Virus record (IMG/VR): IMGVR_UViG_3300034374_007949 | Location: 1-41,394 of that record | Direction: 5' to 3' (one strand) | DNA from: a virus | DNA: 41,394 bases | Part shown: positions 3,786-27,800 of the stretch, piece after piece | Layout: each line of letters starts with the position of its first letter | How positions within the stretch are numbered: the first letter of the stretch is position 1 | Program-made: the position numbers and the translations under genes | The notes under the pieces: generated by a model | Told to the model about the DNA's origin: nothing | The model's input: only the letters and a program-made list of their open reading frames with translations | Databases searched by the model: none

Positions 3786-4520
3786 CTACCGGCGGGCTCC
3801 ATAGCAGGGGAGTGCTGGTTGCAAGTCATACTCGCCAGGGCGAAGAATGCGAGCACACCTGGCCTGGGTGATCGCATAGTCCTCGCTGAGCGCCTTCTTA
3901 GCGTAGGCGGCGAGCACCGCCTCCCACATCTCCAGCTCTGTAGAGCAGCTGGCCAGGGCCCTCTCCGCTGTCACTGGGCCGTAGCCGGGGCAACCCGGGT
4001 AGTTATCAGTTGCATCGCCCGTCAGCACCTGGGCATAGAAAGTGCGATCAGCCTCGAGCTTGCTGGCGTGAATGATCTCGCCATTGCGCAGGTGCAGTCC
4101 AGGAATAGTGAGCAGATCCTTGTCGATGGAGGCGATCACGTCGCCGCCTTCGTAGAGCACCCCGAGCACGTCGTCGCCTTCGATGTCAGGGAGGCGCGCA
4201 ACCAGCCAGCCGCGGGACTGCGCCGCCTTCTCGACCCACTCGATCAGTTGTTTGTAGCCGGCTGGCCTGCGGTACTTCTTGCGGTTGGCCTTGTACTGGG
4301 GCCACACGCCATAGCGAAAGGAAACGCGATCCCCGAAGACCAGCACGGGCTGGTGATCGGGGGCGCCTTCACGGATCTCGGCGATCAGCTCCTGGAAGTT
4401 GGCCTGGGCATCAGCGTGCCGGCACAGGTAGGTCCAGTCGCCGTCATCCCACTCGGCCTCCCATTCCGCCGCAGTGGCGGAGCGGAACAGGTAGACCTCG
4501 GCGTCGATTAGCAGCTTCAT
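3786..4520 (-). CDS. 5'-3' exonuclease, T7 gp6-like (FEN/PIN fold)
   Basis: The 244-aa protein has the acidic motifs of the FEN-like exonuclease family. These are an N-terminal LLIDAE aspartate (residues 3-8), a DIEGDDVLG motif (about residue 112), an ASIDKDL motif (about residue 130) and a TGDATDNYPGCPGYGPVTA helix-hairpin-helix region (about residue 168). In T7, gp6 removes RNA primers, degrades host DNA and generates recombination ends. It is a little shorter than T7 gp6 (300 aa) but keeps the metal ligands. The start overlaps the stop of the preceding gene by 4 bp. It is one of few recognisable DNA-metabolism genes here. Confidence 0.93.
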   Translation of the reverse strand: MKLLIDAEVYLFRSATAAEWEAEWDDGDWTYLCRHADAQANFQELIAEIREGAPDHQPVLVFGDRVSFRYGVWPQYKANRKKYRRPAGYKQLIEWVEKAAQSRGWLVARLPDIEGDDVLGVLYEGGDVIASIDKDLLTIPGLHLRNGEIIHASKLEADRTFYAQVLTGDATDNYPGCPGYGPVTAERALASCSTELEMWEAVLAAYAKKALSEDYAITQARCARILRPGEYDLQPALPCYGARR

Positions 4521-6559: not shown

Positions 6560-6756
6560 GCGGATTGCTCCTTTGGCGCCCACTCGCCGCACCATTCGTT
6601 GGGTGAGACGCCGGGCCAGAGATTGATGGATGTGTGATCCCACGGACTGAGCGCGGGAGGGTTGCGTTGGCAGAACGCGTAGCCGCCTTCTTTCCCTCCG
6701 CGGGAATACAGGCAGTTGACGCACTTCTGCTCAGCGACTGGCGGGAAGAGGGTCAT
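6556..6756 (-). CDS. Small Cys-rich, probably zinc-binding protein (66 aa)
   Basis: I place the start at ATG 6756, inside the end of the RusA gene, because residues upstream of it are unconvincing and the cysteine motif then lies near the N-terminus. A CVNC pair (about residue 11) and two further single cysteines before a C-terminal WCGEW form a likely four-cysteine zinc site. Such short proteins are common in phage replication clusters but have no assigned role. It overlaps the next gene by 4 bp. Confidence 0.6.
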   Translation of the reverse strand: MTLFPPVAEQKCVNCLYSRGGKEGGYAFCQRNPPALSPWDHTSINLWPGVSPNEWCGEWAPKEQSA

Positions 6757-7111
6757 CCCAGACCACCTTGAGGTAAATGGATTGCTCGGCCTTTGGGGCC
6801 CGGGTGAATCGCAGGGCCATGGATGGCACCACGCCCACCCGGTCATCGGCCCACACCAGCCCGTTGCCGCTGTCGAGCACTGCGCCCGCCAGGTTGTCCA
6901 AGTCCCCTCGGGCAGGGCCGCGAAAGCTCAAGACCAGGACGTTGATCTGCTCAAGCGGTGGATCGGTCCACCACTCAGCCAGCAGCGCCCGCACCGTCGC
7001 CTTCCATTTCATGTAGGCCGGTGGCATGTAGGGCCGGCCGCCGCCCCTGGGGGAGCGGGGCCGCGCCTTCGACATGAGCGGGACGCGCAGCTCGAAGTCA
7101 GCGGTTTGCAT
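6731..7111 (-). CDS. RusA-like Holliday junction resolvase
   Basis: The 126-aa protein matches the size and layout of RusA-type endonucleases: a basic N-terminal strand region, a central GDLDNL motif (about residue 72) and a VWADDRVG motif (about residue 88). These supply the acidic metal-binding residues. RusA homodimers resolve four-way junctions formed in recombination and replication. In T7 this job is done by endonuclease I (gp3), so this is a functional replacement. The start overlaps the SSB stop, and the stop overlaps the Cys-rich gene. Confidence 0.9.
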   Translation of the reverse strand: MQTADFELRVPLMSKARPRSPRGGGRPYMPPAYMKWKATVRALLAEWWTDPPLEQINVLVLSFRGPARGDLDNLAGAVLDSGNGLVWADDRVGVVPSMALRFTRAPKAEQSIYLKVVWDDPLPASR

Positions 7112-7749
7112 CAGAACGGGATCTCGTCGCTGTCCCAGCTGGAGTCGGCCGCTACCGGCTGGGTCTGCTGCTCGACCACGGGGCTGCGCGTCTCGTTCCC
7201 GGTCAGCGCGTAGCCCTCTTCCGGTTCGCCAAAGGCTGCGCTCGTGTCTGGCGCGCTGTACTCCACCAAGTGCAGCACCCGCACCGCCTCAAGATTGAGG
7301 CTCAGGCCTTTGCCACCCTCCGGGTTAGTCCAAGTCCAGGTGCTGAAGGCCACCTTGCCAGTGCTGCCGTTGCCGATCAGCACGTCTTCAGGCCAGGGGG
7401 TGCCCTTGGCGTCTTGCACGGCCGGGGCCGACAGCTCGATGCCGCGCTTGGTGACCACGTTGCGCTTGAAAGCGAACTGCCACAACTGGGTTTCGTCGCC
7501 GTTCTGATCCAAATAGGTCTTGAACGGCAGCCCATTGGGGCCCGGCTTGGAGGCGCTGCCGTGGGCATCGATGAAGGCCTGCTTAAGGGTCTTCACGAAG
7601 GCCTGGGCCGCGGCGTCGGCCTTGCTGAGCAGCAGGTCGATCGACCACTGCTCCTTCTCGGATTCCTTTCCTTTGTTCACCACGCCAGGGCGGAGCACCT
7701 TGGCCCACATCAACTCCCCTTGCGGCGAAACCAGAAGCTCTTTCGGCAT
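7111..7749 (-). CDS. Single-stranded DNA-binding protein, T7 gp2.5-like
   Basis: The product ends in an acidic tail with DSDEIPF as its last residues, matching the acidic, Phe-ended tail that gp2.5 uses to contact replication partners. The body has alternating beta-strand segments consistent with an OB fold. I prefer ATG 7749 (212 aa). A TTG at 7800 would add 17 residues and cannot be excluded. Neither start has a clear ribosome binding site. A perfect 14-bp palindrome (7755-7768) lies just before the ATG, and a CCTAGG inverted repeat sits at 7811-7827. In T7, gene 2.5 also has its own promoter just upstream. Confidence 0.82.
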   Translation of the reverse strand: MPKELLVSPQGELMWAKVLRPGVVNKGKESEKEQWSIDLLLSKADAAAQAFVKTLKQAFIDAHGSASKPGPNGLPFKTYLDQNGDETQLWQFAFKRNVVTKRGIELSAPAVQDAKGTPWPEDVLIGNGSTGKVAFSTWTWTNPEGGKGLSLNLEAVRVLHLVEYSAPDTSAAFGEPEEGYALTGNETRSPVVEQQTQPVAADSSWDSDEIPF

Positions 7750-7754
7750 TTGCT

Positions 7755-7768
7755 CTACAGATCTGTAG
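7755..7768. repeat. 14-bp perfect palindrome before the SSB start
   Basis: CTACAGATCTGTAG is a perfect palindrome 5 bp upstream of the preferred SSB start codon. Such a symmetric site could bind a dimeric repressor or fold in the leader RNA. If the TTG at 7800 is used instead, it would lie within coding sequence. Confidence 0.45.
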
Positions 7769-7807
7769 TAGACGTGCGGAACGTAGTCGGCCGCCAGCAA
7801 ATCGTCA

Positions 7808-7827
7808 ACACCTAGGTGTCACCTAGG
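7808..7827 (-). promoter_or_regulatory. Candidate phage-RNAP promoter or operator (CCTAGG inverted repeat)
   Basis: CCTAGGTG-T-CACCTAGG (7811-7827) is a perfect inverted repeat with 8-bp arms. It overlaps a 12-bp palindrome, ACACCTAGGTGT (7808-7819). On the minus strand CACCTAGGTG resembles elements upstream of the 12045 gene and the capsid gene. Its place upstream of the SSB gene matches T7 promoter phi2.5. It lies between the RNAP stop and the SSB start. Promoter function is inferred, and operator function is equally possible given the symmetry. Confidence 0.45.
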
Positions 7828-7833
7828 GCACTC

Positions 7834-10254
7834 TTAGGAGAACGCATACGGGTTGGTGCCCACTTGTCCGGGGCACAAGTCTCCAGTGATCGGGGCGGGA
7901 CTCAACTTGCGAATCTTTGCATTGCAAGCGATCTCGTCGGCCATTGCTGAAAGCCAGTCCACCTTGAACATCTCGCGCAATTCGCTGTGCAGTTGGCGAT
8001 GCAACCACTCGGCTCGTTCTGGGACTACTGAGAAGCAGTCGTGATTGGTCAGCATCTCAATCCGCTTTGCTTCACCCCCGCAGACAATCGAGTGACAGAA
8101 GGCCGCGTCGAATGAGTGGATGACATTGGCCGTGATTCCCCTGCTGGTTGCCCGCGCGCTGAGCTCCCCCTCCGGGCGCCCCTCCCTTCTCGAGCGCTGC
8201 CTGGGCCTGGCGGTCAGAGCAGTGCCACTGCTCACCGTGTCGCCGAGCTCGGCTGCCAGGCGCATGGGCCAGCCCATGGGCGAGGTCCACTGGATCGGCT
8301 GCTGCTTGCTCACCACCTTTTTGGACACATCGCGCAGCCACTCCTGCAGCACCAGGCATGGCGCAATCTCTGCCTTCAGGGCCTGGCGCATGACGCTTGC
8401 CATGTAGCGCACGGGCGCGAGCACATCTCCTTGCAGCCGCCATAAATCGGCCTGGCCTTTGCGCTCTTCGATGGCGGCGACTAGGCCATCCATTACCGAC
8501 TGATGGCTGGCCCCGTAGATGCTCGTCATCACCGGCCCCTTGGCCAAGGAGCGGTCGATGCCGAAGTCCAGCCAGAACACGGCCTGCCGGGCAGCCACAT
8601 CGCCGGCGGCCTCCACCTCCTGGCGCAGCAGCCAAATCACTCGCTCGGCCACGGCTTGATAGATGTCGCCGCGGGTGCTTCCGATCAAATTGGTGTGCCT
8701 GGCCAGCCGCTGATCACGCAGCAGGGCCGCGGCAATGCCCACCCCGGAGCAGGTCTGATCCAGGCGCACCGGGCAGCCGATCGGCACTGTCGGGTCATGC
8801 AGCCACTGGCGCACAGCCCGCGCCGCCTGCAGCAGTTGCCAGGGATCGTCAGCTCCGCGCCACAACTCAAGCCGGTCCAGCGGCTCCTCGGCGATGGCGG
8901 TCAGCAGGTCGAGGTTTTGCTTGCCCCAGTCGAGGCGCTCGTCCCACTTCGCTTTGCCCAGGCCGTAGTGCCCAGCCGCTGCCTTGAGCAGCCACTCAAA
9001 GCCTGTCTCTCCGCAGGCTTCTCCTTGCAAGGAGACCAGGGCTTTCTCGTGATCCGGCCCCTGGTGGGTGACGTACCTATTGGAGCTGTAGACGCGGCCG
9101 CGAAAGTCCAGGTCGTAGGCAAACCACACCGGCCGGCCATTGATGGCCTCCACTTGCCGCAGCGCCTCCTCGATTTTGAGCCGCGATGCCTTGTTGATGG
9201 TCTCGTCTTTCCAGGCCTCGGCTTTGCGTTTGTGCCACTCAGCCCAGTCCCGCTTGTCAGCCCATGGCTCGGGCTGTGGCGGCACCGCCAGTGGATCGCG
9301 TCGCACCGGAAACAGGTCTCGGATGTTGGCGTCCCACGCCTCGCGCTGCGCGGCCACCATCCATGGGTCGATCACTAGCTGCTGGCACTGAAGGGCATTG
9401 ACCACCCGCAGCTGTGCGCCGATGTCGGCCTGCTCGAGGTAGCCCAGATCCAATGGCCGGCGGCTGGTTACCAGGGGCGAGCGGCTGTCCAGGTGCCCGC
9501 CGCCGTGCAGGCACGGCCATGGCCTGGGCTGCACCAGCATTGGCAGCCGGCGCACAGGCATTGGCCGCGGCGGGTTGGCCTTGATCACGGCCAGCACTTC
9601 CGGCGTGGGCTCAAGCGACGGACTGCGGCGCCCCTGCTGCAGCACCCGCACCAGCCCGGTGTTGGCAACCACCAGATCAAGCAGCAGGCCGCCGACATGA
9701 AAGCGGTCCTGATTGCTCCAGGCCTCTTGGCCCAGCCGCAGCTGATTAAGGGCCCACTCGCCAACGACGTCTTTGCGGCGGCCGGCGGAGCGCTTCTTCA
9801 TCAGCCGCAGCAGATCGCGGTCCTTCGCTTCGATCTTCAGCGCTTTGGCCTCGTCCTCGATCTCGCGTCCGATGGCCAGGGCCACCTCTCTGTAAGAACG
9901 CCGCTGGCTGAGCCGGTCGAGCACCACGCCCAGGGCCAGGGCAGCAATGGGCCGCAGGCCTTTGCCCTTGAAGGTGAGCAGGGCTGGCACGGCGCAGTAG
10001 TGGGGGCCGGCGATCGCCTCGCCCCTGACCAGTCGGCCAAACAGGGCATCGAGGGCATCGCTCACCTGCTCGCCGCACTCCTTGAACAGGGCCCGGCCGT
10101 ATTCAGTGGCAGATTCCCGGCCCGCATCCAAAAGGTTTCTGCGGATGCTCAGCGCACGCTCTTCAGAGGCCTTGCGCTGAGCTAATTCCCGGGCTTTTTC
10201 CTCTGCCAGAGGTGTGGTGGACGAAATGCGGGGTGCATCAGCCACCGTGAACAC
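7834..10254 (-). CDS. Single-subunit DNA-dependent RNA polymerase, T7-like
   Basis: The 806-aa protein (T7: 883) carries all the catalytic signatures. It has a DFRGRVY motif in the palm, DQTCSG with the first metal-binding Asp (about residue 499), and KGPVMTSIY with the O-helix Lys and Tyr eight residues apart (about residue 572). It also has NHDCF with the second His-Asp pair (about residue 738). It ends in YAFS, similar to the FAFA foot of T7 RNAP. It should transcribe middle and late phage genes from phage-specific promoters. The start is GTG at 10254, with no strong ribosome binding site. The N-terminal domain is shorter than in T7. It lies downstream of the integrase and attP candidate, as in integrase-bearing cyanopodoviruses. 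Confidence 0.96.
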   Translation of the reverse strand: MFTVADAPRISSTTPLAEEKARELAQRKASEERALSIRRNLLDAGRESATEYGRALFKECGEQVSDALDALFGRLVRGEAIAGPHYCAVPALLTFKGKGLRPIAALALGVVLDRLSQRRSYREVALAIGREIEDEAKALKIEAKDRDLLRLMKKRSAGRRKDVVGEWALNQLRLGQEAWSNQDRFHVGGLLLDLVVANTGLVRVLQQGRRSPSLEPTPEVLAVIKANPPRPMPVRRLPMLVQPRPWPCLHGGGHLDSRSPLVTSRRPLDLGYLEQADIGAQLRVVNALQCQQLVIDPWMVAAQREAWDANIRDLFPVRRDPLAVPPQPEPWADKRDWAEWHKRKAEAWKDETINKASRLKIEEALRQVEAINGRPVWFAYDLDFRGRVYSSNRYVTHQGPDHEKALVSLQGEACGETGFEWLLKAAAGHYGLGKAKWDERLDWGKQNLDLLTAIAEEPLDRLELWRGADDPWQLLQAARAVRQWLHDPTVPIGCPVRLDQTCSGVGIAAALLRDQRLARHTNLIGSTRGDIYQAVAERVIWLLRQEVEAAGDVAARQAVFWLDFGIDRSLAKGPVMTSIYGASHQSVMDGLVAAIEERKGQADLWRLQGDVLAPVRYMASVMRQALKAEIAPCLVLQEWLRDVSKKVVSKQQPIQWTSPMGWPMRLAAELGDTVSSGTALTARPRQRSRREGRPEGELSARATSRGITANVIHSFDAAFCHSIVCGGEAKRIEMLTNHDCFSVVPERAEWLHRQLHSELREMFKVDWLSAMADEIACNAKIRKLSPAPITGDLCPGQVGTNPYAFS

Positions 10255-10518
10255 TGCGTTTTCCGCAATTTATCCACCACACCCCTGTAGAGCTGGGTTG
10301 TAACGGTGGAATCTCAGTCCTGGCGGATGTTCTGCGGGGGTGCAGAGGTCGAATTGGGATTTTAAGTCCGCTGCGTATGCCAATTCCGCCATGCTCCCGC
10401 GTTCCGCTGGAAGGGATCTCAGGGATTCGGTCGGGTGCGGCGGTTGCATTGTTAAGCATCCAACCGCACCCAATCCGCACCCTGAGCCGGTCCTGCGGAT
10501 GCTGCCCACAGTAGGGGC
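10255..10518. other. Intergenic region holding the attP candidate
   Basis: These 264 bp between the RNAP start and the 63-aa gene hold a tRNA-Leu-like stretch (10338-10398) and no convincing gene. Reading frames through it are short and poorly composed. The region is downstream of the integrase, the usual place for a phage attachment site. Confidence 0.55.
10338..10398 (-). other. attP candidate: internally deleted tRNA-Leu(UAA)-like sequence
   Basis: On the minus strand the run from GGGAGCA at 10398 through a leucine D-arm (GCGGAATTGG) to the anticodon loop CTTAAAA (UAA) matches the 5' half of a bacterial tRNA-Leu(UAA). It then jumps to TTCGA and CCTCTGCACCC, which resemble the T-loop and 3' acceptor. 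GGGAGCA pairs with TGCACCC at 6 of 7 positions. The variable arm and the 5' T-stem are missing, and the total of 61 nt is too short for a leucine tRNA. It is therefore more likely an attachment core copied from a host tRNA gene than a working tRNA. In phage P-SSP7 a tRNA-Leu match also lies downstream of the integrase. Confidence 0.65.
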
Positions 10519-17653: not shown

Positions 17654-17897
17654 GCGGCCGCAGCGGCACTACTTTCACCTTGTCCTCGAGCTCAGCAAAG
17701 TTGAGCTTCCCGGCCATGCGGGCGAGGTCTGCTGTGGGCGTATCAGGCATGGCCGCGGCCGTGATGCTGTTCTGCTTCAGCAGCTGCAGGGCCTCGCGGC
17801 GTGCGTTCTTGTCGCCATTGCGCAGGTCATCAAGGATTCCATGGGCGACTTCCGCATGGATCTCCTCCAGGATGTCTCGTAGATCGTTCTTGGCCAC
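17640..17897 (-). CDS. Terminase small subunit (DNA recognition), T7 gp18-like
   Basis: The 85-aa protein (T7 gp18: 89) has two N-terminal helices (LEEIHAEVAHGILDDLR), then an ARREALQLLKQNSI helix and a C-terminal Lys/Pro tail. This is the usual layout of short T7-group small terminases that bind packaging sites. The only start is GTG 17897, without a clear ribosome binding site. It converges with the large subunit gene and diverges from the endolysin gene 26 bp away. Assignment rests on size, helix pattern and closeness to the large subunit. Confidence 0.72.
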   Translation of the reverse strand: MAKNDLRDILEEIHAEVAHGILDDLRNGDKNARREALQLLKQNSITAAAMPDTPTADLARMAGKLNFAELEDKVKVVPLRPPSAA

Positions 17898-17909
17898 GGT
17901 TACATGGGT

Positions 17910-17923
17910 GGAGAGCTTTCTCC
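17910..17923 (+). promoter_or_regulatory. Short hairpin over the endolysin ribosome binding site
   Basis: GGAGA (17910-17914) pairs with TCTCC (17919-17923) around a 4-nt loop, directly before the endolysin ATG at 17924. The Shine-Dalgarno GGAG lies in the 5' arm. The stem is short, so its effect may be small. Confidence 0.35.
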
Positions 17924-19105
17924 ATGATGCCGATACAGGATGTGCAGTTCACTGATGAGCGGTGGCTGCAGTTTTGGGAGCACTACAAGGGGCTTCGGCA
18001 TCAAAAAGATGCGGTCATCAAGCTCGGAAGGCATATCAAGGCCGCGGATCCTGGGCTGCTCAGCGAATCAGCCGAGTGGGTGGATGACTGGCGGGGCAGC
18101 AAGGCGGATTACGGGGCTGCGCTTGAGCTGATCAAGTCGTTTGAGGGCTGCCATCTGAGCGCCTACCCCGATCCATTGCACGGCTGGTCAGTGGCAACCA
18201 TTGGTTATGGGACCACCCGCTACCCAGACGGCCGCCAGGTGCAGCGCGGAGACAAGATCACCGTGGTTGATGCGGCGGAGCTGCTCAGTCGTGAGGTGGA
18301 TCGCATTGCAAGCAGCCTGAGCGAGACCGTGCCGCACTGGCAGGGGCTTAATCGGGGCCAGCAGTCTGCACTGATTAGCTTCGCTTACAACTTGGGCGCT
18401 GGTTTCGTTGGTGCCAGCGGCTTCACGACCATCACCAAGAAGCTGAAAGAGAGGGACTGGGATGGGGTGCCCGATGCCATGGAGCTTTATCGGAACCCAG
18501 GCACCAATGTGGAGGCCGGATTGCTGCGTCGTCGCCGCGCGGAAGGTGCGTTATGGCGCGGGCAGCAGGTTGCGGCGCCCAAACAGGCCGCATTGCTGAA
18601 GGTGGAATGGCAGAGCCAGCTCGATAACAAAAGTGGCGCGGGTTACAGGGAGTGTTTCTCCTCGAGCTGCGCGATGTTGGCCATGTTTTGGAGCAAGGTC
18701 GCCAATGACGATGCCTATAACAAGATCCGCGCACGTTTTGGCGATACCACGTCGGCTCAGGCCCAGCTGGCAGCGCTACGGGAGCTCGGCCTCAAGGCCG
18801 ACTTCCACACCAATGGCGGCCCTGCGGCCCTGGAGGCCGAGGTCGACGCTGGCCGGCCAGTGGCAGTCGGGTGGCTGCATCAAGGGCCCGCCACGGCGCC
18901 CAAAGGCGGCGGTCACTGGACGGTAATCATCGGCTACACCGATGCCGCCTGGATTCACAACGACCCCAACGGCGAGGCGCTGCTGGTCCAGGGCGGCTAC
19001 ACCAAGAACACCAAGGGGGCTGGGATGGTTTACAGCCGCAAGAACTGGAATCCGCGCTGGATGCCAGGTGGCTCCGGCGGTTGGTATCTCACCTGTAAGC
19101 CATGA
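17924..19105 (+). CDS. Two-domain endolysin: GH24 lysozyme plus C39-like cysteine peptidase
   Basis: The 393-aa protein joins two wall-degrading domains. Residues about 65-210 are a T4-type lysozyme (GH24): the catalytic Glu is in SFEGCHLSAYPD, with the Asp nine residues on, then ATIGYGTT and SFAYNLGAGF. Residues about 230-393 look like a C39-type papain-like peptidase, with Cys in YRECFSSSCAM (about 243), His in GGHWTVIIGY (about 330) and the following HNDPNG. The second domain may cut peptide cross-links. No signal peptide is seen, so export depends on a holin. ATG 17924 follows a GGAG at 11 nt, and ATG 17927 is an alternative. The 65 N-terminal residues are unassigned. Confidence 0.88.
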   Translation: MMPIQDVQFTDERWLQFWEHYKGLRHQKDAVIKLGRHIKAADPGLLSESAEWVDDWRGSKADYGAALELIKSFEGCHLSAYPDPLHGWSVATIGYGTTRYPDGRQVQRGDKITVVDAAELLSREVDRIASSLSETVPHWQGLNRGQQSALISFAYNLGAGFVGASGFTTITKKLKERDWDGVPDAMELYRNPGTNVEAGLLRRRRAEGALWRGQQVAAPKQAALLKVEWQSQLDNKSGAGYRECFSSSCAMLAMFWSKVANDDAYNKIRARFGDTTSAQAQLAALRELGLKADFHTNGGPAALEAEVDAGRPVAVGWLHQGPATAPKGGGHWTVIIGYTDAAWIHNDPNGEALLVQGGYTKNTKGAGMVYSRKNWNPRWMPGGSGGWYLTCKP

Positions 19106-19329: not shown

Positions 19330-19540
19330 CCTTACTGCCCTGCCAGGCCTCGCCTAGGTTCTCGGCTGCTTCCTGGGCAAACCAGCGTGCGATCGCTGTC
19401 TGCTGGTGCCACAAGGTGTTCAGTAACAGTGCTGTGTTGAGCAGGCCCTCGTGGTCGCCTGACTCGAACAGGTCAAGCAGTGTTCGCTTCGTGGCCTCCT
19501 GCCTGAACTGCAGCTCCTGGCCAACGACGAAGGGCTGCAC
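19322..19540 (-). CDS. Hypothetical protein (72 aa)
   Basis: The product is helical, Gln/Ala/Leu-rich, soluble and ends in a basic SKAK tail. It lies 2 bp after the small membrane-protein gene upstream, in the late leftward operon. No family is recognised. Confidence 0.55.
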   Translation of the reverse strand: MQPFVVGQELQFRQEATKRTLLDLFESGDHEGLLNTALLLNTLWHQQTAIARWFAQEAAENLGEAWQGSKAK

Positions 19541-19542
19541 GG

Positions 19543-19728
19543 TTACCTCTTGACCTTGGGGCTGATGATGCCGGCTACTACTTCGATCACCCGGTAGAAC
19601 TTCACCAAAAGCCGGGTGTACTCGTTGAGCGCCTTGTTGTCTTTGGGGGTGGGCGTCATGTTGACGATCACCAGGGCCACGCCATGGATGGCAACGGCAA
19701 GGGCGACGTAATCAGCGAGGTGGTTCAC
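19543..19728 (-). CDS. Small single-pass membrane protein, holin/spanin candidate (61 aa)
   Basis: GTG 19728 overlaps the upstream stop (GTGA) and has AGAGGC about 6 nt before it. Residues about 5-23 form one membrane segment (YVALAVAIHGVALVIVNM), followed by a polar region and a second moderately hydrophobic helix near residues 40-55. Size and position beside another small membrane protein and near the endolysin suggest a lysis role. Orientation opposite to the endolysin gene is unusual. Confidence 0.55.
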   Translation of the reverse strand: MNHLADYVALAVAIHGVALVIVNMTPTPKDNKALNEYTRLLVKFYRVIEVVAGIISPKVKR

Positions 19729-19904
19729 GTTTGCCTCTCGATTTCTCGGAGTCTGGTTTCGTGGTCCTGCAGCATTGTCTGCACGCCCTCGAGGATCGTT
19801 GTGGTGCGCGACTCGAATCGCCCCAGGCCGTTGGCGATCTTCCAAAGCGCGGCTACACCAGAGCCGCTCAAGCCGATTAGGGCAATGATCGACGCTGGCT
19901 CCAT
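19725..19904 (-). CDS. Small membrane protein with coiled-coil tail, holin/spanin candidate (59 aa)
   Basis: I start at ATG 19904, giving an N-terminal hydrophobic segment (ASIIALIGLSGSGVAALW, residues 4-21). A heptad-like polar helix rich in Arg, Glu and Thr follows to the C-terminus. This resembles inner-membrane spanin-like or holin-accessory proteins in T7-group lysis cassettes. Its start lies 28 bp inside the reverse transcriptase 3' end, and its stop overlaps the next start. Confidence 0.55.
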   Translation of the reverse strand: MEPASIIALIGLSGSGVAALWKIANGLGRFESRTTTILEGVQTMLQDHETRLREIERQT

Positions 19905-20941
19905 TGGCGGCTGAGTTCCACCCCTGCAGAGTAACGGCCTGGCCGATGCTGTCCAAGCCATGCATAAATCTCCGGCCTGTGTTCAGGATTCCCGCGCCAT
20001 AGCAGCCGGGCCACATGCCGCAGGCTGGCCGTGTCCTTGGCATGGCTGAGGTAGGCCATGGCCGTTTCCAGGCTGCAGCCAGTGGCCTTCCGTTTCAGGC
20101 GCTTCAGCGAGCGCTTGCGGATCAGCTTGTAGGTGCGCCAGTGGCGATAGCCAACCCAGTCCACGCCGTCATCCACCCAGCCCACACCGCTCTTGCTGTT
20201 GAGCTCCATGCCCAGCTCGCGCACCTTCTCATCCATTGCTCGGTGCGCAACGTGCGCCTGTTCCGCGGTCTCGAAGAGAGCGATCATGTCGTCGCAGTAG
20301 CGCAGGTAGGTGTCGAGCTTCAGCTCCCGCCGGGCGAAGTGATCGAGGGGGTTGAGTGCCATGTTGGCCATGATCTGGCTGGTGCTCGCACCGATGGGGA
20401 TGCCACAGTCCCCACCGTTGACCGTGATGTAGCGCCACAGCAGCTCCAGGGTGCGCTTGCACTTGATGTGCCTCTGCATCTCAGCAAACAGCGCTTGATG
20501 GTTGATGCTGTAAAAGAACTTGCGGATGTCAAGACTCAAGTAATACTTCAGCCGACGATCCTTCAGATAGGCATGAAACTGCTGGCTGCAGCGATGGGTG
20601 CCGCGGCCAATCAGGCAGCTGTAGGTGTGAGCGATCAACCGCTCCTGCAGGGGCACACGCAGTACGTTGCAAACGGCGTGTTGCACGATGCGATCCTCCA
20701 GGAAAGGCGCCTGAATCAGCCGGGGCTTGGGATCCTTAATCCAGAACTCATAGTGCGGCCGCGGCTTGTAGCGCCCGTCCAGCAACTTCGCCTCGAGGTG
20801 AGACAGGTTGACCGCCAGGTTGCTCTCGTACTGGAGGATCAACCGCTTGGTTCCTTTGCCACTTCTGACTTCCCTCCAAGCCTCCAGCAGCGCGTCATAG
20901 CTGGCGATCTGGGGCCACAGGTTGCCGAGTTTGTGGGGCAT
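19877..20941 (-). CDS. DGR reverse transcriptase
   Basis: This 354-aa RNA-directed DNA polymerase has all main motifs. RLIQAPFLEDRIVQHAV lies in the fingers, YYLSLDIRKFFYSI carries the first palm Asp, and GIPIGASTSQIMANM (about 185) has the Ser-Gln that marks DGR-type enzymes. YCDDM (about 214) is the active site YxDD, and VDWVGY lies in the thumb-proximal region. DGR enzymes copy the template RNA, misincorporating opposite adenines, and the mutated cDNA replaces the variable repeat. It lies 134 bp downstream of the template repeat and follows avd, the same order as in Bordetella phage BPP-1. There is no maturase or endonuclease domain, which argues against a group II intron or retron. Confidence 0.95.
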   Translation of the reverse strand: MPHKLGNLWPQIASYDALLEAWREVRSGKGTKRLILQYESNLAVNLSHLEAKLLDGRYKPRPHYEFWIKDPKPRLIQAPFLEDRIVQHAVCNVLRVPLQERLIAHTYSCLIGRGTHRCSQQFHAYLKDRRLKYYLSLDIRKFFYSINHQALFAEMQRHIKCKRTLELLWRYITVNGGDCGIPIGASTSQIMANMALNPLDHFARRELKLDTYLRYCDDMIALFETAEQAHVAHRAMDEKVRELGMELNSKSGVGWVDDGVDWVGYRHWRTYKLIRKRSLKRLKRKATGCSLETAMAYLSHAKDTASLRHVARLLWRGNPEHRPEIYAWLGQHRPGRYSAGVELSRQWSQRRSLP

Positions 20942-21075
20942 GGCGAGACGGTCGCTTGAGCTACTGGAATCGCCGTCCCCGGCTATTGAGAGCCCGAAGG
21001 CTCAAGGACGAACTCCCTCCCTTCAACACGGCACGGAAGGTTCCCGTGAGAACCAACGCTGGGCGTGATTGTGTC
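20942..21075 (-). ncRNA. DGR spacer RNA region between TR and RT, with UUCG hairpin
   Basis: The 134 bp between TR and the RT start carry no gene. On the minus strand GAGCC-TTCG-GGCTC (20990-21003) is a 5-bp stem with a UUCG tetraloop closed by C-G, an especially stable hairpin. It is flanked by two further A-T pairs. In BPP-1 a spacer of about 140 nt downstream of TR is part of the functional template RNA and primes cDNA synthesis. The matching size suggests the same use here. Confidence 0.6.
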
Positions 21076-21199
21076 GAAGTCGGACGGCACGCGCGCCATT
21101 GTTGTTGTTCGCGTTGCTGGATGTGTTGTTGAGATTCACGTTGAACACACCGGCATTGGCCGTGTTGTCCCAGTTGCCCCCAACATTCGGCAGCATGTC
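21076..21199 (-). repeat. DGR template repeat (TR)
   Basis: This 124-bp stretch aligns without gaps to VR at 21616-21739 (offset exactly 540). Twenty-four positions differ, and all 24 are A in TR on the minus strand (T on plus). In the VR reading frame TR encodes 13 Asn (AAT/AAC) codons, and 12 of them are changed in VR. AAY codons give the widest choice when only A is mutated. The TR begins at the avd stop codon. Its 3' part shares an unmutated 18-bp GC-rich block with VR (21081-21098). Confidence 0.96.
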
Positions 21200-21608
21200 A
21201 GGAGTCCGCCCTGAGTTCAGAGCGTAGCCAGCCTCCTAGAAGCTTGCCCACTTCATCGAGCTTCTCGCAGGCAACGCGGTGTCGTCTGGGTTCGATGTAC
21301 TTGGCCTCCACTGCCAGGTTGAGTAGCTGGCGGAGAAACTCGTGCTGCACATTGAAGCGTGTGAGATCGGTCTTCTTGTGCTGTTTCTTGTTGGCGGCAA
21401 TGGCCAACTCCAAGCAGAGATAGCCGATCTCACGCATCTTGGCGCTGAGGACGTACTTCTCATACCGCGGCATGTTCCTTGTGAGAACGTCGAGGTAGAG
21501 GCAGAGGTCCTTGCAGCGCCGCTCGATGAGCCAATAGCGCTCCTGCCGCTTGTCCAGTCCTTCTGGAGGAGAAGGGGAGGCTGTCGCCTCCCCCACATGG
21601 CTGCTCAC
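21198..21608 (-). CDS. avd: DGR accessory variability determinant (Avd)
   Basis: The 136-aa basic protein is predicted to be four helices (about residues 20-45, 48-75, 85-108 and 112-130). This fits the four-helix-bundle family of Avd and 23S rRNA intervening-sequence proteins. Avd forms a pentamer that binds the reverse transcriptase and template RNA and is needed for mutagenic homing. It sits between VR and TR exactly as in BPP-1. Its start overlaps the target gene stop by 4 bp, and its stop overlaps the start of TR. The VR-distal hairpin lies within its first codons. Identification is by fold pattern and context. Confidence 0.85.
   Translation of the reverse strand: MSSHVGEATASPSPPEGLDKRQERYWLIERRCKDLCLYLDVLTRNMPRYEKYVLSAKMREIGYLCLELAIAANKKQHKKTDLTRFNVQHEFLRQLLNLAVEAKYIEPRRHRVACEKLDEVGKLLGGWLRSELRADS
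21574..21593. repeat. DGR hairpin/cruciform downstream of VR
   Basis: A perfect 8-bp stem (GGGGAGGC with GCCTCCCC) encloses a 4-nt loop that reads GACA on the coding strand, matching the GRNA tetraloop pattern of DGR cruciforms. It lies 22 bp past the end of VR. Such hairpins mark the target for homing in BPP-1. Here it is inside the avd coding start. Confidence 0.75.
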
Positions 21609-23143
21609 GCAGCCAGAAGGCGGACGGCACGCGCGCCAAAGAGGTAGTTCGCGTGGCTGGAGGGGCTGCCGAGAAGCACGAGGAACACACCGGCATCGGC
21701 CGTGCTGCCCCAGGAGCCCCCAACACGCGGCAGCAGGTCGTTGGGGCTAGAGCGGTACACGCCGTCACCACCAAAGATGTTGGTGCTGGTCTGTGTGCCG
21801 CTGGTGCCCAGCTCCCGGGGGATCAACGTCTCCGTCATCGCCCGCAGCGTGGCATCACCAAAGCTGCTGGAGGGGTGGAAGGTGCCGCCGCTGTGGGGCA
21901 CTAGGTAGCTCCAGCCGGCGCTGCCGAACCAGATGCCGTCATCCGCTGCAGCACCGCTCTCAGCCGCCAGGGACAGCACGCCAGTGGCGCCTGTGATCGA
22001 GGCATTGCCCGTGGTGTTGGTCCACGCTGCGCTGCTGGGGAACAGGCGGAAACCGCCGTTGCCGCCGCCACTGTTGGTCAGGCCAGGGGCGCACTCCCAC
22101 TGGTTGCCCTGAATGTCCACGATTCCGCTCAGCTGACCGTTGTGCGTGGTGTGCTCAACAGCAGAAGCTCCGCTGATTCGCGCAGCGCCTGTGAAAGCGC
22201 GACTGTTACGACCGGCATAGCCCGAGCCGTTGTGACCGGTCAGATCCGTGCGGGCGAACTGCAGGCTGGACTTGTTGACGTCGCTGCCGTTGTTGTTGTT
22301 GCCCTTGGGCGCATAGGGCGCCACATCCATCCAGGCCGCCTTGGTGGTGGCACCGGCGATTGGGGCACCGCCGCCATCGAGCAGGGCCTGGGCATGGGCC
22401 AGCGACAGGAAGGCGATCTGGCTGCGGATCCACAGCGGGCAGGGAGCAAAGTCCGCGCCGCGGGTCTTCACCAGGGCCCACACGCCACCGAGATTGTCGG
22501 CGGGGGTGCCAGCGGCACTGTTCAGGGCTGCGCTGTTGCACAGGCTGAAGGGACTGTTGAAGTCGGTACCGCCGTTGTCCTTGGTGGTAGGGCTGACGGG
22601 CCAGTGCAGAGGACGGGAGACTGCAATGCCGCCGGTGAGCGGGGTGCCGCCGGGGCCGCTGGTGTGGTTGGGGGAGCCAGAGCCATCGGGCTTGCCGTTG
22701 GAGATCTGGTACTTGTCCACAAACACGCCGATCAGGCTTGAGCCTGAGTCGGTAAAGGCCTGAGGCAGACGAGCATCGCCACTTTGCGTGTCACTGATCA
22801 CCACCTTCGTGCCATAGAACGGCGCGTTGGTGTTGCCGGGTGCCTGTACGTCGATGTAGTGCGCCGGGATGAAGCACACGATCGAAGCGCTCGGCAGATG
22901 GATGTAGTTGCCGAAGTGAGGGTGCTCGCGCAGCGGGTCGTAAGTTCCGGCGCTCAGCGGAGCAAAGGTGGCAGGCAGTAGTTCAGGCGGGCAGCAGCCG
23001 ATGCCGAAGCCGCTCATGCCGGCCAGGCCCACGGTGTACCGCCACTGATCGCGGTAGCCGTACCACTCGTTTTCGATGTTGAAGATCCCGGAGGGACCAA
23101 CAATGCGCTCCTTAACGCGGAGCAATGGGGTGATGACAGTCAT
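21605..23143 (-). CDS. DGR target: variable tail/receptor-binding protein, C-type-lectin-like C-terminus
   Basis: The 512-aa protein is Gly/Ser/Thr/Asn-rich, with no membrane segment. Its C-terminal part has WECAPG, GGFRLF and DGIWFG segments, and ends in the GARAVRLL pattern typical of C-type-lectin or formylglycine-generating-enzyme-like DGR targets such as Mtd. The VR covers residues 469-509. Compared with TR-encoded residues, N473R, N477S, N480S, N483D, N488L, N490L, N492G, N493S, N497H, N500Y, N501L and N502F differ, plus M470L, D479G and T494P. These would lie on an exposed ligand-binding surface. It follows tail-fibre genes, so it probably binds the host receptor at the tail tip. Confidence 0.9.
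   Translation of the reverse strand: MTVITPLLRVKERIVGPSGIFNIENEWYGYRDQWRYTVGLAGMSGFGIGCCPPELLPATFAPLSAGTYDPLREHPHFGNYIHLPSASIVCFIPAHYIDVQAPGNTNAPFYGTKVVISDTQSGDARLPQAFTDSGSSLIGVFVDKYQISNGKPDGSGSPNHTSGPGGTPLTGGIAVSRPLHWPVSPTTKDNGGTDFNSPFSLCNSAALNSAAGTPADNLGGVWALVKTRGADFAPCPLWIRSQIAFLSLAHAQALLDGGGAPIAGATTKAAWMDVAPYAPKGNNNNGSDVNKSSLQFARTDLTGHNGSGYAGRNSRAFTGAARISGASAVEHTTHNGQLSGIVDIQGNQWECAPGLTNSGGGNGGFRLFPSSAAWTNTTGNASITGATGVLSLAAESGAAADDGIWFGSAGWSYLVPHSGGTFHPSSSFGDATLRAMTETLIPRELGTSGTQTSTNIFGGDGVYRSSPNDLLPRVGGSWGSTADAGVFLVLLGSPSSHANYLFGARAVRLLAA
21616..21739 (-). repeat. DGR variable repeat (VR)
   Basis: This copy of TR lies inside the last 45 codons of the target gene. Differences from TR occur only where TR has A. 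The block 21621-21638 is identical to TR and GC-rich, fitting the initiation-of-mutagenic-homing site at the 3' end of VR. Downstream of it the sequences diverge at once, as expected for IMH versus IMH-like ends. Confidence 0.96.
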
Positions 23144-23146
23144 GGA

Positions 23147-23428
23147 TCAGGCCTCGTTGAAAGGAGCGGGATAGAAAGTGACGGGACTGGGGAGCTGGTC
23201 CTTGGTGATCGCAGTCACTGGTTGACCACCAGCCCATGCGTCGATGTCATCACCAACTCCATGAGCACCGAAGTAATCGAAGCCGTCATGTGTGTTGGCA
23301 TCAGGGTCAGCGTCACGCTGCAATGCCACCAAGGTGAAGGTGGGCTCAGCGCCGGGATCCTGCTCGGGCCACTGCACATTGGTGCCGGGCTCGGGATCAG
23401 CCTTGTAGAAACGAAAGTCCATGGTCAT
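23147..23428 (-). CDS. Hypothetical tail-region protein (93 aa)
   Basis: I take ATG 23428, which overlaps the stop of the 55-aa gene upstream (ATGA). GTG 23431 or ATG 23422 are alternatives. The product is acidic and rich in Pro, Asp and Gly, with no recognised domain. It lies 3 bp before the DGR target gene, so it could be a chaperone or partner of the variable protein. This is inference from position only. Confidence 0.6.
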   Translation of the reverse strand: MTMDFRFYKADPEPGTNVQWPEQDPGAEPTFTLVALQRDADPDANTHDGFDYFGAHGVGDDIDAWAGGQPVTAITKDQLPSPVTFYPAPFNEA

Positions 23429-23595
23429 CACATGTGAGAGGCGGAGGTGGGGTCGATCACAGAGCGACCGCCATAGCTGCGATCACCAGGGCGACCGATG
23501 GGCAGTGTGTCTTGATCGAATTGCTGCAGTTTCTGCAGGCTGGGTTCGGCTACCGGCGCTGTAGCCGGAAACCCTGTGGACGGAAGTACGGCCAT
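23428..23595 (-). CDS. Small tail-region protein (55 aa)
   Basis: ATG 23595 overlaps the stop of the 88-aa gene (TGATG), and the TGA at 23430-23428 overlaps the next ATG. The Pro/Ser-rich N-terminus is followed by a Gln-rich helix and a Gly/Arg segment. No family is recognised. The chained overlaps support it. Confidence 0.5.
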   Translation of the reverse strand: MAVLPSTGFPATAPVAEPSLQKLQQFDQDTLPIGRPGDRSYGGRSVIDPTSASHM

Positions 23596-23612
23596 CAGCA
23601 GAAGCTCCCTGA
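23590..23612. repeat. 23-bp direct repeat, copy 1
   Basis: It is identical to 24053-24075. It spans the last codons (Gly-Ser-Phe-Cys, stop) of the 88-aa gene and the start codon of the next gene, and is part of a duplicated C-terminal module. Confidence 0.8.
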
Positions 23613-23861
23613 CGGAAGGTGAATAGGGTTGTAGGCATCAGCGCTCACGTAGTGAAACGCTGTACCTGGAGGCACCACCGGGCCAACGCCAAATGGCACT
23701 TGACCTGGTGTGCCAACAGAGAACGAACCGTTGCGATAAATCGCAGTCAGTTCATCCAGCAGCACCGAGCCGGTCGATCCCTCTGGGCCAACAGGTCCGA
23801 TGGGTCCGGGGATAACAGGAACGAATGTTCCCTGGAATGGGTTAAAGGCGTAGGTAGCCAT
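23595..23861 (-). CDS. Tail-region protein with collagen-like stretch and duplicated C-terminal module (88 aa)
   Basis: Residues about 16-31 are Gly-X-Y-like (PGPIGPVGPEGSTG), suggesting a short trimeric collagen-type stalk. The C-terminal 44 residues (FSVG-PFGVGP-GTAF-NPIH-SGSFC) closely match the end of the 251-aa tail fibre gene upstream, including the terminal GSFC. It may be a short fibre or cap carrying the same trimerising or binding tip. It starts 2 bp after the preceding stop. Confidence 0.6.
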   Translation of the reverse strand: MATYAFNPFQGTFVPVIPGPIGPVGPEGSTGSVLLDELTAIYRNGSFSVGTPGQVPFGVGPVVPPGTAFHYVSADAYNPIHLPSGSFC

Positions 23862-23863
23862 GA

Positions 23864-24058
23864 TCAGCTCTTGGTGATGCTGGTGACGTTGTTGTTGGCG
23901 TCGTATGTCAGCGACAACGTGGTGACAACATTGCCCCCAGCGCCGCCTGCTCTGTAAGTGACGGTTGCCAAGTTCGACCCCGAGTAGGTCATCGACACAT
24001 AGTCATGTTCGGGAATTGCAAATCCCGGGATGCTGTTCCCATAAGGTTGCGTGGCCAT
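23864..24058 (-). CDS. Small tail-region protein (64 aa)
   Basis: ATG 24058 overlaps the stop of the tail fibre gene (TGATG). The product is rich in Tyr, Thr, Ser, Gly and Asn, with alternating hydrophobic residues suggesting beta-structure. This fits a small fibre or baseplate-like component. No family is recognised. Confidence 0.55.
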   Translation of the reverse strand: MATQPYGNSIPGFAIPEHDYVSMTYSGSNLATVTYRAGGAGGNVVTTLSLTYDANNNVTSITKS

Positions 24059-24075
24059 CAGCAGAAGCTCCCTGA
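24053..24075. repeat. 23-bp direct repeat, copy 2
   Basis: It is identical to 23590-23612. It covers the end of the tail fibre gene and the following start codon. Confidence 0.8.
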
Positions 24076-24813
24076 AGCGTGGTGGATGGGGTAGTAATCG
24101 CTCTGGCTGATGCCAGAGAAAGCAGCGCCCGGCGATAGCACCGGGCCCACCCCGAATGGGATGGCGCCAGGGCGGCCAACACTGAAGGCAGCGTTGATAA
24201 GAATCTCCAAGGGCTCGAGCACCTGGATTGGGCTCTGCGGCACTGCCGCGGCCGTGGCGATCTGCACCGCTGCGTTGGCTGCCGCCGATGCAGAGTTGGC
24301 CGTGGTAGTCACTGCATTGGCTGCAGCGATTGCAGCGTTGGAAGCGGCAGTGGCTGATGCCGCTTCGGCTGTAGCGGCCACTGCTTCGGCTTGCGCAGCA
24401 GAGGCAGATGCCGCGGCCGCGGTGGCGTCGGCGCCGAACTGGGTGATCGCCGCATCGTTGCGGTCCTGCTGTTCCTGAACCACGTAGAGGTTCTGCAGGT
24501 CGGCGGTATCGAGATCGTCGGCGATCAGGTTGCTGCCGTCCTGCCAATCGACCAGACGCGTTTGATTGGGCGTTAGTCGGATGACGGCCAGCGTCTGACC
24601 GGACGCAGGCGCGGTGGCGCATTGCACCTGGTCATCGCTGGTCCAGTTGAAGCCGGCCCCCTCGGCCAGCTCACTGTCAAAGGTGCCGTCGACGATGTTG
24701 TAGTCGATGTACAGCTTGACGTGAGCTTTTAGTAGGTACGGGAACGGGACGCTGAAATCAACAGTCGCCCCGTTGCCCGGGTACTGGCGATACGAGAACG
24801 GGGTCGCAGGCAC
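24058..24813 (-). CDS. Tail fibre protein with T7 gp17-like N-terminal anchoring domain
   Basis: Residues 1-125 resemble the T7 gp17 N-terminal domain that attaches fibres to the tail: YPGNGATVDFSVPFPYLLKAHVKLYID, then NQTRLVDW and a helix with LQNLYVVQEQQDR. Residues about 125-190 are an Ala-rich coiled coil, probably trimeric. The C-terminal 44 residues form a module duplicated in the 88-aa gene. At 251 aa it is much shorter than T7 gp17 (553), lacking a large receptor-binding tip. That job may be split off to the DGR target and small genes downstream. Confidence 0.85.
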   Translation of the reverse strand: MPATPFSYRQYPGNGATVDFSVPFPYLLKAHVKLYIDYNIVDGTFDSELAEGAGFNWTSDDQVQCATAPASGQTLAVIRLTPNQTRLVDWQDGSNLIADDLDTADLQNLYVVQEQQDRNDAAITQFGADATAAAASASAAQAEAVAATAEAASATAASNAAIAAANAVTTTANSASAAANAAVQIATAAAVPQSPIQVLEPLEILINAAFSVGRPGAIPFGVGPVLSPGAAFSGISQSDYYPIHHASGSFC

Positions 24814-24820
24814 GGCATGA

Positions 24821-27800
24821 CTACGGGGTTGTAGTCATTGTGGCGCCATTGAGGGCCTCGGCAAAGCGACGTAGCCCTTCCGTCTCCTGTTGCAAGCGGT
24901 TGCTTCGCATTGTGTTGCGTCGCTCTCGCCACTCAGCAGCAGCTGGGCTCTCGCTGGCGTTCAGGGCATCTCTCGTGATCAGTTCGTAGTAGCGCTTGGT
25001 GGCATTGATCAGGATCTGCGCAGCCTGTCCCCTGCGCTCGGCAGGCGGCATGTCTCTCTTCTTCAGGTCTGCAGTGGTTTGCGGGTTGCCCTCCATGGCG
25101 AGGTACACCGGATCATTGATCAGTGAGCGCAATGCCTCTCTAACGGTCTTGCCTTTGATGTGGCGCTCGAGGAATTGAGAGACAGGAAAGCTGATCGGCT
25201 TGTTGCTCTCGACCGTCATTCCGCTTGGTAGATCGACCGGATAGCGCAACGTGAAGGTGACCTTGGGTACGACGCCGGCAATCATTAGTCGAGCCGTGGG
25301 CGACATCTCTCCGACTGCAGCGGCATAGGTGTCGTTGTATTCCTTCTTCAGCTCGTCGCTCATGGCGACGCCCTCGAGGGTCCCCGTCATGAGGGCGCTG
25401 GGCGGCTTGAGCTGGTTCTGGGCGTCGAGCTCCGCGTAGAGCTTGGCGTCGGCCTCGGGCCATACCTGCGGGAAGAAGCGATCCTTGACCGCGTCGACCA
25501 GTCGCTGCCCCCAGGCCAGTTGCAGGTTGCTGCCCAGCCAGTCCTTCTCCTTGTAGGCGCCACCGAGCAGGCCGGTGAGGCCCAGAGTGCCGTAGGCCAG
25601 CTCACGCAACTGTCGCTCGATCTTCTCGAGGGGTTCTTCTCCTGCCCCCAGGAACCTCTCGTTGGCGCTGGGCGCGGTGCTGGTGAAGAAGCTGCGGCCG
25701 CTCATGCCGGTGAAGCGCTCAACATCGCGGACGGCGCCGATGCCAGGGAGCTGGCCCGAACCCAGGTAGCCGAGCACCCTGGTGGGCGACTTGCTTGGTT
25801 CCATGAACAGCTCCATCAGCTGGTTCACCTGGCCGAGCGCGGTCTGGCGCATCAGATGGCCGGTGAGCACCTGCATCACGCCGCCCAGGGCGTTGTACTG
25901 GTCGTACTTGGAATAGGCCCCCGTCACAAAGGTTTCCTTGACGTCCTTCCACAAGAAGAGGGTGTTCAGGATCGGGATGCCTCCCAGGAAGGGGATGCCC
26001 GCGACCGTGTTGGGGTTCTGCCCCTGGGCCTTAAGTCGAGTGAGCCACTCTTCGCGCTCGCGCGGGTCGATTGGGCCGTTGCCGATGATCAGCCCGGCCG
26101 CATCCAAAGCGCCGAAGCCGGCCAGCAGCATCGAAGAGACGGCCCAGGAGGCCTTGGCCCTGGCCACCTGCTCTGGGGTCGCGCTCTTCCCGAAGGCCGC
26201 ATTGATCGGCACAGTGAGCCAGTCACTGGCCAGGCCGAAGTCCAGCAGCGTGCCCATGAAGGGGGACTGCACATAGGGGAAGGCCAGGTCGAAGAACCAC
26301 TGCTTGCGGAGCTTTTGCAGCCCCTCGTAGACAGAGCCGGTGACGCCGTCTTCTGGGCGGTTCTGCATCCGCATTTCTTGCGAGAACCCTTCGGCCACCT
26401 GCGACTCGGGCGTGTCGAATGTCGGGGTGCCGTAGGTCTCGCCCAGCTTTTCATTGAGGATTCGCTCGGCGATCTCCTGGTCGGTGACATCGGTGCCAAG
26501 GGCGTATTCACGCCGATAGCTCTTGATGTTCTCCTCGGTTGGGGCTTGCTGGTAGAAGGCCTTGCGCAGCTCGCCCATCACCCACTCGTCGCGGTCCCGC
26601 TGAGTCATCAGTCCGAGCTGAGCTCCGTCGCGCCTGGCCCTGACCTCGAGGTCGTTCTTGATCTTGAACGTGTGGAAGAAGTAGCCGGAGACGTTGTCGA
26701 CCCCGCTCATCATGCGAAAGCCCATGGTCGTGTTCTCCACGCCCATGCTCTCCAGCCAAATGCGCCAGCCGGCTTGGAGCTTGTTGCGGAAGATGCCGAC
26801 GTTCTCGGGAATCGACAAGGGCCCTGAGTCCTTGCCGGTGCGATACGGCATGTCGAGCAGCTGCTGGATTTCGGCCTTGCGCTGCGCGTTGTCGCTGATC
26901 TGCCGGCCATAGGTGTCGGCGTTGCCGCCGAACGGCGCCTTGCCCTGATTGAACGCATCAAGGAACAGCTCGCGCGCGGACGCACGAGTCATGTCCATCC
27001 CGAACTTGACGCTGTCCCACGCCACTCCAAAGCCGTCCACCAGGTCGGCCCTGGTGGTCTTGGTCCCGAATGGTGTCAGCAGGCCAGTGTTCTCAAACGC
27101 CTGGCGCAGGGGCCCCAGGAACATCATCGCCATGTTGCTGCCCGCGTTCGTCTTGAACTGCGTCATGGTGTTGAGCAGCTGGCTGTCCTTGGCCAGTGCA
27201 TTACCGCGGCGCATCAGGAGGTTGAACCACTCCTTGTCGCCTAGGCGGCTCTTGGGGTCGACGCCATCGAGCTGGGTGATCAGCTTGAGCTGCTCAACGG
27301 CTTCGGCCGCTTTCTCTGGGTTGACCTTGGCGTCGTCGATCGCCTCCACCACCCGGGCGAAGTGATCGTCCCTGACCAGCTCCTCGGCGGTCATTGTTAG
27401 GCCTGCCTCGAGCTCTTGCTGATCTGGCTGGAACAGGCGGCCATCGGCCAACTCCTCCGCCAGGTCGGTGTCCATCAGGCCGGGGTTGTCGATCGCTCCG
27501 CGGCGGGCATAGAGCGCCTGGCCGGTTCGGCGGCCAGCAAGGCTGTAGTGCCGCTCGGAAACCAGGGCCAGCTTCCACGCCTTGAAGGCTGAGCCCTTCA
27601 GCTCGTCGGGCACTTGGCCGCCACGGATGGCAGTGCTGATCTCGTCGAGCTTGTCGAGGTAGGACTCGCGGTAGCCCTCCTTGGCTACCCGCAGGCGAAT
27701 CATCCGCTCGGGGATGGCATTGAACGCTGCTGCGTCGTTGGCCATCAGCGCCATCACCCGGTTCACGTCCAGGTTCAAGTCGCGGTAAGAGTCGACCACC

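Follow-up and report, generated by a model that had tools for sequence, protein, structure and literature searches.

A diversity-generating retroelement that probably serves an integrase-bearing T7-like phage as an exchangeable receptor-binding module

Does a T7-like phage carry the means to rewrite its own receptor-binding protein, and can such means pass between phages as a unit? The question is raised by a diversity-generating retroelement (DGR) cassette at positions 19877-23143 (minus strand) of a 41,394-nt IMG/VR virus record, IMGVR_UViG_3300034374_007949, the whole of which is referred to here as the window. In Bordetella and gut phages, DGRs have been studied well; T7-like phages serve as the model of lytic podoviruses and include a cyanophage branch important in aquatic carbon cycling. 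Overall, the cassette very probably works as a BPP-1-type DGR and provides an integrase-bearing T7-like phage with a receptor-binding module that can be swapped. The mechanism itself is already known; the host group, the exchange of the module, and a pair of tandem hairpins are new.

In transcription order, the cassette consists of a target gene with a variable repeat (VR), avd (accessory variability determinant), a template repeat (TR), and a reverse transcriptase (RT) gene, as in BPP-1. The target is an open reading frame (ORF) of 512 aa (21605-23143, on the minus strand like all cassette features), and the VR (21616-21739; 124 nt) lies at its 3' end, 8 coding bases before the target stop codon, with a GC-rich 3' end resembling an initiation of mutagenic homing (IMH) sequence. 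The avd product (21198-21608; 136 aa) matches NCBIfam NF033474 ‘DivGenRetAVD’ at 88 bits against a family cut-off of 80 bits, as well as Pfam bAvd (PF22296; 1e-23) and phrog_3206 ‘Avd protein of DGR’ (3e-28). The TR (21076-21199), a 124-nt repeat containing 34 adenines, is followed by a TR-RT spacer (20942-21075), which probably forms the folded 3' portion of the DGR RNA, and by the DGR-type RT (19877-20941; 354 aa). The RT matches Pfam RVT_1 (8e-20) and phrog_1423 (8e-97), carries an IGxxxSQ motif (residues 183-188) and a YCDD motif (at 215), and has BPP-1 Brt among its nearest phage relatives (36% identity over 68%). Its final residues (19877-19950) are without counterpart in most kin, and a module border falls there. 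The initial annotation had described a complete DGR in the order target-avd-TR-RT, with SQ and YCDD motifs in the RT; once the ORFs and the repeat pair were located, the order, every coordinate, and both motifs proved correct, and the TR/VR pair, Avd, a DGR-type RT, and a target with a 3' VR were all present.

The TR and the VR, 540 nt apart, are 81% identical over 124 nt. Each of the 24 mismatches is at an adenine of the TR (10 A>C, 7 A>G, and 7 A>T), and all 90 non-adenine TR positions agree; given an adenine content of 34/124, the binomial probability of adenine-only mismatches is about 3e-14. Read in the frame of the VR and target, the TR contains 13 AAY codons, no pattern of adenine substitution can create a stop codon, and the reachable protein variants number about 6e18. 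Relatives of the RT were found in 21 IMG/VR loci, the source of the cassette comparisons, and 13 TR/VR pairs, including that of the window, could be compared. Across these pairs, 264 of 275 substitutions lie at a TR adenine, and the poorly bounded pair of locus L015, which was retained in the count, supplies 6 of the 11 exceptions. One difference near the 3' end, A in the TR and C in the VR at window position 21620, is constant in 13/13 pairs and is a good candidate for the IMH/IMH* distinction that holds the flow of information from TR to VR.

Comparison between relatives points to the same process at work. L006 and L017 have identical TRs (0/124 differences) and VRs that differ at 24/124 positions, all 24 of them TR adenines. 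Between L007 and L017, 28 of the 600 nt before the VR differ (4.7%), along with 1/124 in the TR and 22/124 in the VR, 21 of the latter at adenines (Fisher p ~9e-18). In these comparisons, rows with L018 were excluded as out of register by one base, and the 600-nt upstream figures for L006 pairs were left unused because an indel inflates them. The pair L011 and L012, with 3 differing sites in 14,550 nt and none in the VR, is uninformative on activity. Variation restricted to the VR among related genomes, which the initial annotation had set beforehand as a test, was thus found in L006 and L017. Judged by its evolutionary consequence among related contigs, the DGR is very likely active in this lineage.

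Two hairpins follow the VR on the minus strand. Hairpin 2 (21574-21593), GGGGAGGC-GACA-GCCTCCCC, lies within the 5' end of avd, starts 22 nt past the VR, and has a GC-rich stem of 8 bp and a GRNA loop. Phage DGR hairpins are reported to have GC-rich stems of 7-10 bp and a GRNA loop, 4-34 bp from the VR (Guo et al., PMC3240598), and hairpin 2 falls inside these limits of stem, loop, and spacing. Among 9 distinct sequences, 3 of its 8 pairs are changed on both sides and none is broken. It is therefore predicted to be the target-recognition hairpin of the DGR. Hairpin 1 (21598-21615), TGGCTGC-GTGA-GCAGCCA, directly abuts the VR, and its loop, RTGA across relatives, contains both the stop codon of the target (TGA) and the start codon of avd (GTG). 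In the same sequences its pairs are 100% kept, with compensatory changes at 2/7 pairs; hairpin 1 may serve homing, translational coupling, or both. When pairing partners were slid as a control, only 41-56% of cells were paired, against 100% for both hairpins as drawn. The 13 TR/VR pairs with conserved tandem hairpins form a natural data set for the target-site signal.

Column identity in the TR-RT spacer averages about 89% across 13 lineages, and the consensus fold of the spacer has 42 pairs, 8 with compensatory changes, although the covariation term is weak (-1.7 kcal/mol); no Rfam family matched it. A scan of 19500-25000 found no sigma-70-like promoter; this is compatible with the phage RNA polymerase as the transcribing enzyme and proves nothing by itself.

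The target protein ends its C-terminal half with ...GGSWGSTADAGVFLVLLGSPSSHANYLFGARAVRLLAA. A profile of 24 target homologues matches PDB 5vf4, the DGR variable protein TaqVP of Thermus aquaticus (PMC6328139), weakly (1.8e-5) and in two short collinear stretches, GIVD..GN.WE and the terminal VR stretch GG.W...G..A...GAR. A PDB search with a shallower alignment gave zero matches, so that only the deeper alignment found 5vf4, and the N-terminal ~160 residues had no solved relative in the PDB search. From these matches, the variable domain likely has a C-type-lectin fold. The target is a probable tail-tip receptor binder. The target gene of L020 (2112-3647) is mosaic, with the first ~350 residues like L006 and the remainder like the window; this points to recombination within the adhesin gene.

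A working scheme can be potentially described as follows. By homology to BPP-1, a complex of RT and Avd would copy the TR RNA, placing random bases opposite adenines, and the cDNA would then replace the VR, the TR being preserved. Replacement would be guided by the GC-rich 3' end of the VR and by the hairpin or hairpins immediately behind it. The outcome would be a phage family varying at up to 19 codons, presumably on the ligand face of the C-type-lectin domain of the target. The probable place of the target is the tail tip, where it may be held by an adaptor-like C-terminal domain common to the tail fibre and a small neighbouring protein. While the parts, the adenine signature, the hairpins, the VR-restricted divergence, and the block exchange described below are read from sequence, we infer the fold, the tip location, receptor binding, and any gain in host range.

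Beside the cassette, all on the minus strand, lie the tail-fibre gene and two small ORFs. The tail fibre (24058-24813) has PF03906 over residues 1-145 and a variable C-terminal part, and a small adaptor-like protein (23595-23861) has its C-terminal ~48 residues in common with it. A 44-nt direct repeat (23590-23633 and 24053-24096) is common to the two genes. The shared domain, which ends ASGSFC or PSGSFC and is also present in the relatives G003, G023, G036, and G041, is possibly a socket for the receptor binder. Immediately upstream of the target, a small ORF (23147-23431) accompanies the cassette in relatives, with identities of 86-96% in G003, G036, and G041, 58% in G023, and 46% in G038.

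Identity to the window differs greatly between the cassette and the rest of the genome. In G041, the core proteins are distant (RNA polymerase 26%, terminase 40%, and capsid protein 45%) and those of the cassette are close (Avd 97%, target 90%, RT 88%, and small adaptor 94%). G036 resembles it, with 51% for RNA polymerase and 58-59% for capsid protein, and 98% for Avd and 93% for the target. L016 has 98% identity in the RT segment and about 72% in the adjoining lysis gene. The identity profiles place the borders within the tail-fibre gene at ~24,400-24,500 and at the RT 3' end at ~19,950. A phage of another type, 69 kb long, whose portal is unrelated and which has no T7 RNA polymerase, also carries a homologous cassette (RT 76%, Avd 80%, and target 65%).

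Conversely, G007 (L133), a sibling whose capsid protein and terminase are 97% and 93% identical to those of the window, has a different DGR in the same interval. This putative element (6719-9647) comprises an Mtd-family target, Avd, a VR (7830-7946), a TR (8401-8517), and an RT (8673-9647) only 29% identical to that of the window. Its adenine signature is weaker, with 7/10 mismatches at A (p 4e-4); nevertheless, its assignment as a DGR is supported by the Mtd, Avd, and RT families, the target matching phrog_11262 (‘tail’) at 1.6e-123 and Pfam mtd_2nd. Two T7-like genomes of ~42 kb, G059 and G060 (L181 and L182), have target homologues of 48% and 66% identity, and RT and Avd were not found in either; the adhesin thus occurs there without its mutator.

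Among the relatives, therefore, the tail locus is in one of four states: it has the DGR of the window, an unrelated DGR of the Mtd type, the adhesin alone, or none of these. It seems fairly probable that hypermutation capacity in T7-like viruses of the cyanophage kind is a horizontally swapped plug-in with recurring borders, in which adaptor, adhesin, and DGR move together across distantly related T7-like lineages and into a phage of another type. Conservation alone could raise the identity of the cassette, yet it leaves the different cassette of G007 and the sharp border steps unexplained. The dispersal of DGRs was described as constrained, with sporadic transfers (Roux et al., PMC8144416), and the window cassette is a concrete case of such a transfer with visible borders. 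With this natural series of states, one can test directly when hypermutation is gained or lost and whether host breadth changes with it.

Other explanations have to be weighed, and some of them draw on observations that count against a functional receptor-binding DGR. The view that the RT is a retron, group II intron, or defence enzyme, next to a repeated gene end only by position, could appeal to the group II, retron, and Drt models that NCBIfam lists; all of these, however, score far under their cut-offs (e.g. 122 of 300 bits). The closest solved structure is instead the 8ub7 series (3.6e-51), which we take to be the BPP-1 DGR complex, ahead of a retron-type RT (1.7e-17) by ~34 orders of magnitude; with the SQ motif and an adjoining Avd above its cut-off, this origin is exceedingly improbable, and the DGR assignment of the initial annotation stands. 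Ordinary recombination or gene conversion among adhesin genes, without reverse transcription, would account for the mosaic target of L020, which is like L006 first and like the window further on. As the sole cause of the VR differences it is rejected, because it would not confine changes to template adenines; 264 of 275 differences are at a TR adenine, with C, G, and T all occurring in place of A, and this explanation is highly improbable.

A decayed or silenced DGR would have intact parts, no homing in this phage, and a VR that is a relic of past activity. L002, the sole near-identical contig (1 SNP in 19,968 nt), has an identical VR, and the RT C-terminus is atypical, most kin being homologous only through the first ~330-345 residues. 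However, the RT, avd, and target frames are open, the TR is intact, 0/90 non-adenine TR positions differ in the VR, and the VRs of closely related cassettes have diverged recently, which makes silencing quite unlikely. The target could also be a variable protein with another role, such as exclusion or lysogenic conversion. In its favour, a Pfam scan of the target matched no family, mtd included, and the 13 matches of the target in annotated phage records all lack a functional name. Comparison of the target with the Mtd profile by hhalign, which gave a non-significant probability of 2.4%, counts against the receptor-binding DGR reading. AlphaFold2 models of the full target (11 homologues) and of its C-terminal 353 residues (24 homologues) had a mean pLDDT of 26 and 33, respectively; since both are unusable, the C-type-lectin fold is held as only likely. 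Against another role, the target adjoins the tail fibre and is transferred together with it, and the sibling G007 has a tail protein of the Mtd family at the same site; such a role is therefore rather unlikely, and a functional receptor-binding DGR remains the best explanation.

The genome around the cassette is of the T7 type. The window encodes a single-subunit RNA polymerase (PF00940), terminase (PF22530), the tail-fibre N domain (PF03906), tail tubular proteins A and B (phrog_457 and phrog_446), a T7-type connector, and a tyrosine integrase, which bears out the initial description of an integrase-bearing T7-type genome. Family A DNA polymerase (PF00476) had no match in the window, six relatives, or the freshwater Synechococcus phage S-SRP02, while the control was positive in 10 genomes; in the T7-like group of the window, G003, G023, G036, G041, G059, G060, and S-SRP02, this polymerase was thus not found. 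The only PolI-related match in the window is a 244-aa PolI 5'-3' exonuclease-like protein at 3786-4520. Although S-SRP02 is classified in Autographiviridae despite having no PF00476 match, ‘T7-like’ is used here rather than that family name, because the polymerase was not found. In the lysis gene (17801-19105), a phage lysozyme domain lies between the N-terminus and a C39-peptidase domain; the lysozyme part has no match in G003, G007, G036, or S-SRP02, and therefore the domain was gained or lost.

The gap between integrase and RNA polymerase contains the 5' half of a tRNA-Leu(UAA)-like sequence (10357-10391, minus strand), which is also present in G003, G023, and S-SRP02 and is a probable phage attachment site (attP). 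The arrangement presumably resembles that of cyanophage P-SSP7. As a guide to the host, this site was tried and rejected: a 34-nt tRNA-Leu-like stretch occurs exactly in 39 genomes, mostly Coriobacteriia, with 0 titled cyanobacterium, and since it reflects general tRNA-Leu conservation it names no host. The host of this small aquatic phage is probably a picocyanobacterium, on the basis of kinship to S-SRP02.

S-SRP02 (MW822601, PMC8790148) is the nearest isolate. It shares the overall genome plan of the window and resembles it in RNA polymerase (47%), terminase (69%), tail tubular protein B (66%), integrase (54%), and the tRNA-Leu-like site between integrase and RNA polymerase; it differs in that RT, Avd, and target were all not found there. 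As far as could be checked, this agrees with the earlier impression that no well-studied T7-like phage has such a cassette, and a search of the open-access literature found no paper linking a DGR with a cyanopodovirus or describing one in this T7-like group. In the global survey (PMC8144416), viral DGR clades have adenine bias, phage tail-type targets, and C-type lectins; the window has the first of these and probably the other two. The text of that survey mentions no podovirus, Autographiviridae, or T7-like phage, and being built on public metagenomes, it may already include some of these contigs unremarked.

Other known systems share features with the window. A distant counterpart, a Helicobacter ganmani prophage (BK070120, 10182-13065) from another host phylum, has a DGR-type RT of 33% identity and a target homologue of 27% over 87%, about 1 kb apart. 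TaqVP shares with the target the GIVD..GN.WE and terminal GG.W...G..A...GAR stretches, though these are short and the match is weak (1.8e-5). The DGR of BPP-1 (mtd-avd-TR-brt) has the same gene order, adenine-specific change from TR to VR, Avd, RT, and a GRNA hairpin downstream of the VR. The window differs from it in a target not recognisably Mtd by sequence, in an extra RTGA-loop hairpin that abuts the VR at the stop/start junction, and in its setting, a T7-like phage with its own RNA polymerase.

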